Assembly: GCF_000981585.1 (NCBI RefSeq)
Contig: NZ_LN831776.1
Span: 2,681,001-2,745,000, forward strand
DNA length: 64,000 bases
Direction of reading: 5' to 3'
From: Paenibacillus riograndensis SBR5
GTDB lineage: Bacteria > Bacillota > Bacilli > Paenibacillales > Paenibacillaceae
Shown: positions 31,071-34,642 of the stretch, piece by piece
Layout of the letters: each line of letters begins with the position of its first letter
Position numbering within the stretch: position 1 is the first letter of the stretch
Notes under the pieces: model-generated
Seen by the model: only the letters and a program-made list of their open reading frames with translations
Told to the model about the DNA's origin: nothing
Databases searched by the model: none
Translations under genes and position numbers: made by a program

Positions 31071-31640
31071 TGAGCAAAAGGACAGCGCATCGGTGATGTC
31101 CATCGTGTTCTTCATTATTTTTAATTCCTATAACGGGGTGCTGAACCAGTTCCTGCTGAAATATCATCTGGTGGGTGAGCCGGTAAGCTGGCTGGGACCT
31201 AAATATGCAATGCTGACGACTATAATGATTGATCTGGGGAGCTGTCGGCAACTACATACTGCTCTTCCTGGCTGGACTGCAGGGCATACCGGAGGATCTG
31301 TACGAAGCTGCGTCCATAGACGGAGCAAGTGAAGCCCGTAAGCTGTGGAGCATTACCATTCCGCTGCTGGGTCCGGTTATGCAGATGATCATCATGCTGG
31401 CAATTACGATTTCACTCAAGGGCTACGAGAGCATTATGGTATTGACCCAGGGCGGACCCTACAGCAAGACGGAGGTTATGTATCTGTATCTGTTCAAGCT
31501 GCTGTTCCCGATTTCGCCGGAAGTGCAGACCCAGCAGCAGCTCGGCTACGGAAGTGCGGTCGGTTTTGCGACGGGCGGTTATTGTGGGTGTGGTCACGAT
31601 GATTTATTTCTACTTTTCTATATTAAGCCGGGGAGGATTA
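31071..31640 (+). pseudogene. broken sugar ABC transporter permease (MalF-like)
   Basis: The start survives: GAGGGGG then ATG at 31071, followed by MSKRTAHR, and then the frame breaks into VMSIVFFIIFNSYNGVLNQF, the middle of a binding-protein-dependent permease, so roughly 130 or more residues are missing. A shift near 31230 continues the protein in another frame (GAVGNYILLFLAGLQGIPED, LYEAASIDGA, the EAA loop), and another near 31570 leads to AVIVGVVTMIYFYFS. Deletion plus two frameshifts rule out a working protein. Confidence 0.85.
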
Positions 31641-31644
31641 TTCT

Positions 31645-31940
31645 ATGGTACAGAAATTGCTGGGGAAAACCATTCTGTGGATCTTCCTGCTGGTCAGTGC
31701 TGCAATCACCTTGTTTCCCATTGCTGTCGTCATTTTCGGTTCGCTGAAAACGAATCTGGAACTGACCACAGGTGCGACGATTCTGCCGGCCGCTTGGGAG
31801 TTCGGCAACTATGCGACGGCGTGGAAGACGGCAAACTTCTCGCGTTTTACCTGGAACAGCATATTTGTCAGCACGATGACGACGGCAGGCTCGCTGCTAG
31901 TGTCCGCGATGGCGGCGTATGCGGTTGACCGTGTATCCAA
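31645..31940 (+). pseudogene. truncated sugar ABC transporter permease (MalG-like)
   Basis: An ATG at 31645 after GGGGAGG opens VQKLLGKTILWIFLLVSAAI and runs through ITLFPIAVVIFGSLKT, SRFTWNSIFVST and LLVSAMAAYAVDRV, the first ~95 residues of a MalG/AraQ-type permease. After DRV the homology stops and unrelated sequence follows to a stop at 32016. The junction near 31935 marks the edge of the A/T-rich island. Confidence 0.8.
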
Positions 31941-32211
31941 ATCGACTAAACCTCCGGAAGACACCAAAATTCGTACGGTTATCGAAGCCGCAGTCAGGCA
32001 TTTTGATCTGCCGTGATGCGAATGCTTGAATGGCGAAATAATGATTTATGAAGGTGGAATTCTTAATATCATCGAATATGATAACAATCTTTTACACATA
32101 CTTATTTTGGAGGGGAGCATGGAACGATGCACAAAATTTTTAGAACGATTGGTGAGTGTAAATGAATCTTATAAAAAATGAAATCTTCTATCATATTGAT
32201 AGTTATGGAAT

Positions 32212-32781
32212 ATGGAAAAAAATACAATATATCAAATAAATAAAAATGAACAACAAGCTTATTCAAGTGTGTCAAGAGCTTTTATAACTGAAGACAGTAA
32301 AAAAAACATACCTTATATACCATTAATCAAACTTAGGACAATGAATGATTTAAAAACTGCTTTAAATTATGCTTTAAACTCAATCCAACATCTTAATTTT
32401 GTACTAAGAGAAATGGTCTTTGAAGAAGTAAGAATGAAACATTTTCCTGATCATCCTTCCAGGCAAACATGTCTTTACGTTACCAACAAAGAAGAACTTG
32501 CTTATTGGTATAGAAGACTTGTAAGAAAAGAAAAACGAATTATTGTATTTGAGTTGACAGGGAGAATTCATCAAGCTTCTGAGTGGCACACATTTGTAGG
32601 TGACTTGAAAAGCGTAGAACAATATAGGCAACTGGCTAACTGGTATTGGAATGGAACCCCGGCAAAAACAGTTTGGGGTGAATATTGGAGCAATAAAGGG
32701 CAACTCGATCGACAAGAATGGATTTTTGAAGGAACGGCTTATGTGGTTGATTTCAAAAATAACTTGGATGAAATCGATTAA
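32212..32781 (+). CDS. DUF2441-like protein, possibly 5'-frameshifted
   Basis: A 189-residue open frame. The core LREMVFEEVRMKHFPDHPSR followed by QTCLYVTNKEELAYWY, then YWNGTPAKTVWGEYW and a final VVDF, resembles DUF2441 proteins. Those begin with FYHIDxxG; exactly this (NEIFYHIDSYGIWKK) is encoded just upstream from ATG 32162 but in another frame, and joins the downstream frame at the seven-A tract 32216-32222. Either the gene is frameshifted or the tract allows slippage. It is A/T-rich like its neighbours and convergent with the kinase gene. Function unknown. Confidence 0.6.
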   Translation: MEKNTIYQINKNEQQAYSSVSRAFITEDSKKNIPYIPLIKLRTMNDLKTALNYALNSIQHLNFVLREMVFEEVRMKHFPDHPSRQTCLYVTNKEELAYWYRRLVRKEKRIIVFELTGRIHQASEWHTFVGDLKSVEQYRQLANWYWNGTPAKTVWGEYWSNKGQLDRQEWIFEGTAYVVDFKNNLDEID

Positions 32782-32838
32782 CAGGGGAACCGATTGTGTC
32801 TTATTGCGTTATCGTATCCGAAAATTCTGTCCAGCTTT

Positions 32839-34188
32839 CTAGAGTTTTGTACTTTCTATTTCTAAATATTCCTTTATAGTTTGAATAGAGGGTGTTTTTT
32901 TAGACTGGATTGAAAGGATATTATTTAATACATCTATTTCATCTGATTGATCGATATTGCCGTAATTCATAACATAATTTATTAAATTAACAATAGAAAA
33001 AATATCATCTTCGAATTTTGGTAATCCATGTTCTTTTTGATTAGGGGATATAAAACCCGGTGTTCCAAAACCATATGCAGGAATCTGACTATCCACCTTG
33101 TAGGCAAATTCAAAATCAATAAAATATACTTCGCCATGCTGATTTATTAAAATATTTGAGGGACTTAGATCTCGGTGTATGTATTTCTGATTATGAAGTC
33201 GCATAAGATTCTCGCAAATCTTAATTAGATAGTTAAGTAATTCCTTTTTTTTATCTTTATTAACATGAAACCAAAGTTGTTTACATGTTAGTTCTTCAGT
33301 TTTTTCTTGTAATGTCTTCCCTTCAATAAATTCCATTGGAAGATAACCACAATTATTATCATCAAAATAAGAATCAGTCTTTGGTATAGATAACTTAGAT
33401 TCTAATTCTTTGTGTATCAATTCTTGATTCTTAAGTTGATAACGACCATCTCTTCCATACCAATCAGATGTACAATGTGCTCTAGCTTGTTTCAAAACTT
33501 TAAGTTCAACGTGTTCGTGTGACCTAACATCCAAAGTTAATAATATACCACCTTTAGGAGAAGATTTAATTACTTCTAATAATAAATATCCAGGACCAAT
33601 AATATTATGTGAATAAGTTGCTGGATAAGGAAATGTGAACTTTGTAAAAGGGATAGTCACACCTTTTTCCAGTCGGTATGGGATATGGTATTCATCTTTT
33701 ACTAATCTATCATTAATATATATATATTTTGTTCTTTCACCAGTGGACTTGGTGACAATAATTGGATTGAAACTACCGTATCTGGCGTATACAACATCTC
33801 CTAGACGTAAATCAGTAATAATTTCTGGTCCTTTTTGACCCTTGGTAATCTTTGCTAAGTCTTCTGATATCATTTTGGCTTCGTTATCATCTTTTGGGTA
33901 AATTGTAATGCATTTTCCTATTTGTGTATATCCAAAAAAACCTTCGTTTAATTTAAATAGATTTTCAGAACTATTAATTATTTTAAAACACAATTTTGAT
34001 TTTTGGAAAAAGGGAAGTATTAACTCGAAAAGTTGTAATGCGTTTGTAGGTATAGTTGATAAATGTATTTTCCAACCCTGTATTCTTGAAGAAGTTCCAA
34101 CTTGTAACCAAAGACCTTCAGAAATATACTCGAATTTGTGTTTTGTCAATATTAATTCATAATTCATAGATAAATTATTTCTTAACAT
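32839..34188 (-). CDS. lanthipeptide synthetase-like lyase-kinase without cyclase domain
   Basis: A 449-residue protein in A/T-rich sequence. Residues ~35-195 match the N-terminal lyase region of class III (LanKC/RamC-type) synthetases: GYTQIGKCITIYP (87-98), KGPEIITDLRLGDVVYARYG. Residues ~200-430 are a protein kinase: ELKVLK (Lys230), IHRDLSPSNILI (HRD 338-340), FIDFEF (Asp358), GTPGF. Full LanKC enzymes have about 850 residues with a C-terminal LanC cyclase, absent here. CGGAGG before the ATG fixes the start. It should phosphorylate and eliminate Ser/Thr of a precursor, most likely the peptide encoded upstream. No separate cyclase is in the window. Confidence 0.8.
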   Translation of the reverse strand: MLRNNLSMNYELILTKHKFEYISEGLWLQVGTSSRIQGWKIHLSTIPTNALQLFELILPFFQKSKLCFKIINSSENLFKLNEGFFGYTQIGKCITIYPKDDNEAKMISEDLAKITKGQKGPEIITDLRLGDVVYARYGSFNPIIVTKSTGERTKYIYINDRLVKDEYHIPYRLEKGVTIPFTKFTFPYPATYSHNIIGPGYLLLEVIKSSPKGGILLTLDVRSHEHVELKVLKQARAHCTSDWYGRDGRYQLKNQELIHKELESKLSIPKTDSYFDDNNCGYLPMEFIEGKTLQEKTEELTCKQLWFHVNKDKKKELLNYLIKICENLMRLHNQKYIHRDLSPSNILINQHGEVYFIDFEFAYKVDSQIPAYGFGTPGFISPNQKEHGLPKFEDDIFSIVNLINYVMNYGNIDQSDEIDVLNNILSIQSKKTPSIQTIKEYLEIESTKL

Positions 34189-34269
34189 CTGAGCCTCCGT
34201 ATGTAGCTAATTGGCTTAGCTGAAGATACTTTGTATAAGGAATATAGTTTGACTTGGCATGGAGTCTCT

Positions 34270-34340
34270 GCGGGCAACAGTTCTAGCTAATGTCGCAAAA
34301 CATTAAGATTTTACGATGTTAACTAGCATATAGTGCCCGC
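34270..34340 (-). other. long imperfect hairpin between precursor and synthetase genes
   Basis: Two ~27-base arms (GCGGGCAACAGTTCTAGCTA... and the inverse ...TAACTAGCATATAGTGCCCGC) enclose a ~20-base loop in the 214-base gap. In RiPP operons such structures often lower read-through from a highly expressed precursor to its enzyme; that role is inferred. Confidence 0.5.
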
Positions 34341-34402
34341 GACTTCATAGGGGATATGCTAAAAAGGGTTTTTCAAACTAATAGATCCCACTAAGTTTTT
34401 TT

Positions 34403-34642
34403 CTAAATATCATATTGCTCATGGCAACAGTGAGAAACAACCTCTGAATTACCTAAAGCAAATACTCCATAAAATGCTTTTTCTGGCGTCATAGATAGAA
34501 TTTGTTCTCTAATTGCAGCATCTGTTATGTTAATCTCAGAAAGAATTTGGTGTGGTTCATTAATCAACTTGTTAAAGAACTCTTGATCTGATTTCGCTTT
34601 TTCCATTAATTCTTTATAAATTGTGGTTTTAATATTATCCAT
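34403..34642 (-). CDS. RiPP precursor candidate, NHLP/Nif11-like leader
   Basis: A 79-residue peptide with an excellent AGGAGG six bases before the ATG. Residues 10-40 (ELMEKAKSDQEFFNKLINEP) have the pattern of nitrile-hydratase-like/Nif11-type leaders (acidic, amphipathic, S/D-x-E-F-x-x-x-L-x-x-x-P). The tail (residues 57-79) contains S66, S70, C72 and C73 in GNSEVVSHCCHEQYDI, the right residues for lanthionine-type rings. It lies upstream of the lyase-kinase gene on the same strand. Calling it the substrate of that enzyme is inference, but the combination is hard to explain otherwise. Confidence 0.7.
   Translation of the reverse strand: MDNIKTTIYKELMEKAKSDQEFFNKLINEPHQILSEINITDAAIREQILSMTPEKAFYGVFALGNSEVVSHCCHEQYDI

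Follow-up and report, generated by a model that had tools for sequence, protein, structure and literature searches.

What would a lanthipeptide-type synthetase make if it had no cyclase? The question is raised by two neighbouring genes in the genome of Paenibacillus riograndensis SBR5 (a single contig of 7.92 Mb), within the window of 64,000 nucleotides analysed here. One encodes a 449-aa enzyme that has two features of class III/IV synthetases, a lyase and a central kinase (the latter with a short C-lobe), and lacks the third, a C-terminal LanC cyclase; the other encodes a 79-aa peptide. A sequence-only reading of the window had proposed a LanC-less lyase-kinase working with a leader-core peptide, in an unusual pairing and with a DUF2441 gene as a possible further component. 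The enzyme and its peptide withstood the analysis, but the unusual pairing and the DUF2441 component did not. On balance we lean slightly toward the view that the two genes form a RiPP cassette whose synthetase, minus LanC, would act as a dehydratase only and yield a peptide carrying dehydroalanine (Dha) and free thiols.

The locus and its precursor gene

The features of the locus are listed in Table 1. The pair and the DUF2441 gene lie in an island of ∼31% GC, with surroundings of 45-53% GC, and a GGAGG-type site precedes the ATG of each of its two ORFs. To the left is a truncated permease frame; when this flank (31260-31960) was searched, the matches of relatives ended at 666-675 of its 701 bases, near 31931. 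To the right is an IS630-type transposase, broken and in two frames. No exporter or protease was noticed among the ORF frames beside the pair, promoters and terminators were found no more often than expected (12 against 14.0, and 0 against 2.1, respectively), and a search of Rfam gave no match.

Table 1. Features of the peptide-enzyme locus, with positions in the window
Feature	Position	Strand	Basis
Precursor peptide gene, 79 aa	34403..34642	-	blastp and leader profile
Lyase-kinase gene, 449 aa, no LanC, proposed dehydratase	32839..34188	-	Pfam, NCBIfam, PDB match, residue alignment
Imperfect hairpin, 71 nt, single copy	34270..34340	-	fold of the 214-nt intergenic region between peptide and enzyme genes
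DUF2441 gene, convergent neighbour, judged probably outside the system	32212..32781	+	PF10386, E 1e-12

The DUF2441 label of the convergent gene held, but the gene is probably not part of the system. In 82 related loci no hit to DUF2441 fell below E 1.3, and in seven further loci (L162-L168) none fell below 0.10. Of 15 other genomes of the family that have it, G095 and G111 are the only two with a RamC_N gene, which is on a different contig in each. Not found in related loci and scattered in the family, it was dropped as a third component.

The small ORF is present as first described, with a leader-like N-terminus and with S66, S70, C72 and C73 near its end, in a short core that has no Thr. 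The leader probably covers about residues 1-56 and is NHLP-like, a label that found a weak match to TIGR03793 (E 7e-4) but at 19.5 bits stays under the curated cut-off of 50.9; the score for NF038399, 13.4 bits, is likewise below its cut-off of 40. By blastp the peptide matched all 13 precursors tried, from 11 related loci, ranging from the precursor of locus L162 (40% over 60 aa, E 2e-16) to the second one of L050 (L050b, 1.5e-5), these E-values being for that small set. A search of 5.8 billion proteins returned the peptide itself alone, which says little because the L162 homologue exists, and among 100 genomes of the genus seven others gave best E-values of 0.006-0.06 in frames of 211-803 aa, which we took as chance.

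The intergenic region between the two genes folds better than expected (z -4.27; none of 200 shuffles equalled it). The hairpin within it has no T-tract, and its single copy in the genome rules out a mobile repeat. The corresponding region of L162 also folds (z -2.76; 2 of 200 shuffles as good), and that of L038 shows no comparable fold (z +0.76). The hairpin may be an RNA attenuator or processing element.

The lyase-kinase and its missing cyclase

Pfam placed RamC_N (PF25816, 113 bits) at residues 25-182 of the enzyme, followed by Pkinase (PF00069, 57 bits) up to the C-terminus, and neither Pfam nor NCBIfam found a LanC domain after the kinase. In NCBIfam, LanL scored best (221 bits, the match ending at model position 389 of 851) and LanKC reached 218 bits (ending at 422 of 833), below the curated full-length scores of 650 and 575 bits. 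The best PDB matches were 8car, an 865-aa protein named as a Ser/Thr kinase, and LanKC structures, 8sao among them. After manual placement of ThurKC residues on the enzyme's alignment with its PDB match, lyase residues K40, H42, K69, K92, D126 and R136 fell on six positions at which PMC10604976 describes mutants as dead or impaired. Six of the eight tested ThurKC lyase residues are kept in this way; the equivalents of K108 and R191 are G83 and Y167, and in the aligned clade members (described below) the first column is G throughout and the second Y in all but L048 (Q).

The earlier account of a lyase and kinase of 449 residues was borne out for the domains, HRD 338-340 and D358, but the beta-3 lysine is K233 (in the column of ThurKC K257) rather than K230. 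The kinase also keeps N345, the DFE motif, and E256, the last saying little because its column is Ala in many relatives. The kinase had been called complete, but its C-lobe is about 20 residues short: D395 to P433 spans 39 residues, against 58-60 in seven relatives (19-21 shorter). The missing residues probably lie around helix G, and an Arg that is invariant in the clade is Thr432 here. Invariant columns of the clade are broken at 18 of 96 positions; seven members have 0-8 broken out of about 100, and L051 has 19 of 115. On a second alignment the enzyme has 25 of 116 broken, compared with 19 in L162, 21 in L166 and 19 in L051, while seven others have 2-13 of 118-129. Its share is the worst on either alignment.

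This share and the short C-lobe favour the main rival explanation, in which LanC was deleted during rearrangement of the AT-rich island, leaving both genes functionless and in decay. The flanks, with a permease match that stops near 31931 and an IS630 element in two frames, point the same way. The long branch of the enzyme (1.43) and the failure to notice an exporter or protease gene next to the pair also count against an active cassette. However, both frames are open, with good ribosome-binding sites, in DNA of 31% GC, and all mapped catalytic residues are kept, whereas P0004, a 453-aa stand-alone relative, keeps its kinase motifs and has lost six lyase residues. P0004 thereby shows a path to a protein that is now a Ser/Thr kinase only, acting on the peptide or elsewhere with a vestigial lyase; since none of the six lyase residues conserved in the clade has been lost from the SBR5 enzyme, we regard such a fate as very improbable for it. 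Viral contigs gave three weak kinase matches only.

A remnant of the cyclase was searched for in the genome and downstream of the enzyme. PF05147 (LanC) had no match in the 7.92-Mb genome, and the LanC profile scored -4.2 bits on the region downstream; elsewhere in the window, 31 of 63 tiles scored at least that high. Of seven LanC queries, three weakly hit a stretch of 43 aa (26% identity) at one place, 32667-32539 on the minus strand, with E-values of 0.005, 0.016 and 3.1 for that region alone and 0.33 in a wider set. Its score was reached by 4 of 400 dinucleotide shuffles and by none of 400 synonymous shuffles of DUF2441, which by these tests is beyond plain chance and counts toward decay, but raw scores of 47-50 occur also at other DUF2441 loci. 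We rejected the stretch as a LanC remnant because the profile gives nothing there and because most of it is antisense to the segment of DUF2441 that matches PF10386, DUF2441 being a real gene on the opposite strand. With no downstream remnant by profile, and with a 79-residue frame that is conserved elsewhere (see below), decay of both genes is weakened as an explanation, and we consider it unlikely.

A clade of leader and synthetase genes

Relatives were collected by a scan with one pattern over genomes of 84,980 species, and the best 80 of 87 were kept; because one pattern was used, clade members without it are missed. In the tree, the 449-aa enzyme falls among LanC-carrying enzymes, in a clade that spans Neobacillus, a cyanobacterium, Legionella, Chloroflexi and others. 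Of 18 clade loci, 17 have a similar leader ORF directly upstream of the enzyme gene; the one without is L052, which sits at the clade's margin. A profile built from two leaders (that of the 79-aa peptide and that of L040, which is thus a training locus) was run on every ORF of L036-L117 that encodes 30-400 aa and, by best ORF, found the leader in each of the 15 loci examined (L038-L051 and L065), with E 0.012 in L049 and 2e-4 or better in the others; L162 and L166 gave 2e-11 and 3e-8. At the level of sequence, the pairing of enzyme and leader is beyond chance. If membership is defined as an enzyme inside the clade with a homologous leader upstream, the SBR5 pair belongs, and an NHLP-like leader beside such an enzyme, earlier thought unusual, is the rule. 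The frame of 79 residues, whose conservation had been in question, is conserved beside related enzymes.

The lack of a cyclase, in contrast, is as unusual as had been claimed: the pair recurs in the clade, but always with LanC, which is present in all 17 other leader-bearing loci. It is in the same frame as the synthetase in 13 loci (L038-L048, L050 and L065, by length and zinc motif, with Pfam run on L038 and L040 only), as well as in L162 (Pfam) and L166 (annotation and motif). L049 and L051, which had looked LanC-less, carry it in another frame downstream (tblastn), as does L088. That close homologues all have LanC speaks for truncation in SBR5, although the LanC profile found no remnant there.

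RamC_N occurs in 42 of 394 genomes of the family. When 392 genomes of the order were scored with the 449-aa protein, only G124 (locus L162) was clade-like, at 297 bits, and the next score was 107. In G278 and G129, LanC is the next gene after the lyase-kinase; in G133 the frame has 306 aa, and in G271 it contains stops. Two family members likewise have lyase-kinase and LanC as separate neighbouring frames (L036:6639-9353 and L037:4508-7121). Elsewhere, a luciferase-like monooxygenase (PF00296), possibly a tailoring enzyme, directly follows the LanC-fused synthetase in L039 (10705-11616) and L047 (6377-7402), and Legionella species (L041-L046, L065) have, beside the same synthetase, a long precursor or two in which CGxTC-type motifs recur.

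A careful tree made L162 the sister of the 449-aa enzyme (support 99/97), followed by L038 (89/83). This join could be helped by long branches, since both enzymes are long-branched (1.43 for SBR5, 1.21 for L162) and odd in composition, and since L038 is nearer by identity (42% vs 37%), but it has independent support in that the L162 precursor is the best match of the 79-aa peptide. The zinc site is C,C,H in 14 of 16 LanC rows, including L038, and A,S,H in L162. The whole precursor has 9-17 cysteines in most clade members, 4 in L040, 3 in L038, and 2 in both L162 and SBR5 (the 79-aa peptide), a trend that is a correlation over few lineages. Because the LanC of L162 has already lost its zinc cysteines, the cyclase-less enzyme seems, as judged from these comparisons, to mark the last stage of a stepwise loss, and L038 (zinc LanC), L162 (zinc-less LanC) and, if active, the SBR5 pair (no LanC) make up a ready-made series.

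Predicted product and comparison with known systems

If the pair is expressed and active as a dehydratase-only cassette, the leader of the 79-aa peptide would dock on the lyase-kinase, the kinase would phosphorylate Ser66 and/or Ser70, and the lyase would eliminate the phosphate to leave Dha. The most likely product would be a dehydrated peptide in which Cys72 and Cys73 are still free, because no LanC was found in the genome. An enzyme of such build can dehydrate without rings having to form: PMC2843593 reports that a cyclase-less VenL (residues 1-513) brought about four dehydrations in its substrate, after which all four thiols could still be alkylated, and PMC10676384 states, citing earlier work, that the excised CurKC and SgbL dehydratases suffice. 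An active SBR5 pair would thus be a natural test of whether ring closure is dispensable.

Rings might also form after dehydration, on their own or with the help of an unrelated protein acting in trans. The core has Ser only, so that only Dha, the more reactive dehydro residue, could form, and C72 and C73 sit 2-7 residues from S66 and S70. According to PMC10206099, even a strong thiol failed to react with Dhb placed in a linear peptide. However, no cyclisation was detectable in dehydrated VenA without cyclase (PMC2843593), and with no LanC found in the genome we judge rings in the SBR5 product to be quite improbable.

Lyase-kinases that end before a LanC domain occur also outside this clade. 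Of 39 short rows in the tree, 34 fall in two clades (i and ii, with 9 and 25 rows) away from the 449-aa enzyme; the other five are that enzyme, L049, L051 and L088, discussed above, and L058, which is cut by a contig end. LanC queries on the loci of 11 of the 34 gave nothing better than E 0.11. In the genomes of those 11 loci, PF05147 was absent from nine, L063 having one fused copy elsewhere and L075 two stand-alone copies; five are MAGs of uncertain completeness, and five of the six isolates are without PF05147. Precursor-like ORFs with LSGAHSxxC were found in 5 of 9 clade-i loci and in L164 and L165; in clade ii, a family with one to three Cys, sometimes rich in Thr, occurs in 12 of 25 loci and another family in 7 of 25. 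We infer that these ORFs are precursors because a conserved N-terminus is joined to a variable C-terminus. They have 1-6 Cys beside LanC-less enzymes (median 1, n=24) and 2-17 beside LanC-bearing ones (median 9, n=13), a difference that fits the dehydratase-only reading, with p 3.5e-6, uncorrected for kinship, in a set that took one Legionella locus of seven and omitted the second copies of L076 and L100 and the peptides of L164 and L165.

Seven LanC-less clusters (L068, L074, L108, L115, L116, L164 and L165) share a ∼80-aa precursor-like ORF ending in LSGAHSxxC and a ∼100-aa protein, together with ABC transporter genes in those whose gene content was listed completely and, in some, an S9 peptidase. 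Four of the ∼100-aa proteins were run against Pfam and one against NCBIfam, none scoring over a cut-off, and on an Enterococcus faecium plasmid (NZ_CP064407.1) the enzyme of such a cluster is annotated merely as 'protein kinase'. Precursor-like ORFs also lie upstream of LanC-less enzymes in L060, L066, L067, L069, L081, L085, L098, L099, L101, L104, L105 and L114; ten of these 12 have one Cys, and those of L060, L104 and L114 (the last from Fictibacillus gelatini, a host without LanC) have 24-25 Thr in their last 60 residues.

Tentatively, and as something we hold possible rather than probable, LanC-less lyase-kinases may be a widespread, unrecognised dehydratase-only branch of classes III/IV, reached more than once and making unringed peptides from Cys-poor cores, some nearly all Thr, with the SBR5 enzyme a separate late arrival whose sister's cyclase lost its zinc site first. 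In the literature searched, with subscription journals mostly outside it, neither natural LanC-less LanKC or LanL enzymes nor NHLP leaders with such enzymes were described. A large mining study (PMC7268733) required LanC together with a kinase for a class III/IV cluster, so LanC-less systems would go uncounted there.

Among known systems, class IV LanL (VenL) shares its lyase-kinase order and catalytic residues with the 449-aa enzyme and gives the best NCBIfam score, a further likeness being the C,C,H zinc site of 14 of 16 LanC rows, but the SBR5 pair has no LanC and an NHLP-like leader. From class III, the enzyme matches 8sao, named LanKC in the PDB, and shares the DFE motif with ThurKC, but it lacks LanC and has G83 and Y167 in place of K108 and R191, and its peptide lacks the LxLQ motif described in PMC7268733. 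Class V systems, with Aph-like LanK and HopA1-like LanY (PMC10604976), have kinase and lyase as separate proteins, whereas here they are fused, and dehydrazoles, which PMC10676384 defines by a DUF4135 dehydratase with YcaO, differ in that the 449-aa enzyme has no DUF4135 match. NHLP-clan precursors (TIGR03793, NF038399) share, in our own reading, the leader pattern A(K/R)xDxxFxxxL...P with the 79-aa peptide, which nevertheless scores under both curated cut-offs. The LanC-less RamC_N-kinases of Lactobacillus, Enterococcus plasmids, Verrucomicrobia and Acidobacteria likewise lack LanC and have a small precursor-like ORF upstream, but they form separate clades with other precursor families, and clade i adds the ∼100-aa protein, an ABC transporter and sometimes an S9 peptidase. 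The pair of G124, in the same family, has the sister enzyme, a 40%-identical precursor and the same gene order, and differs from the SBR5 pair in that its enzyme keeps a LanC domain from which both zinc cysteines have been lost.
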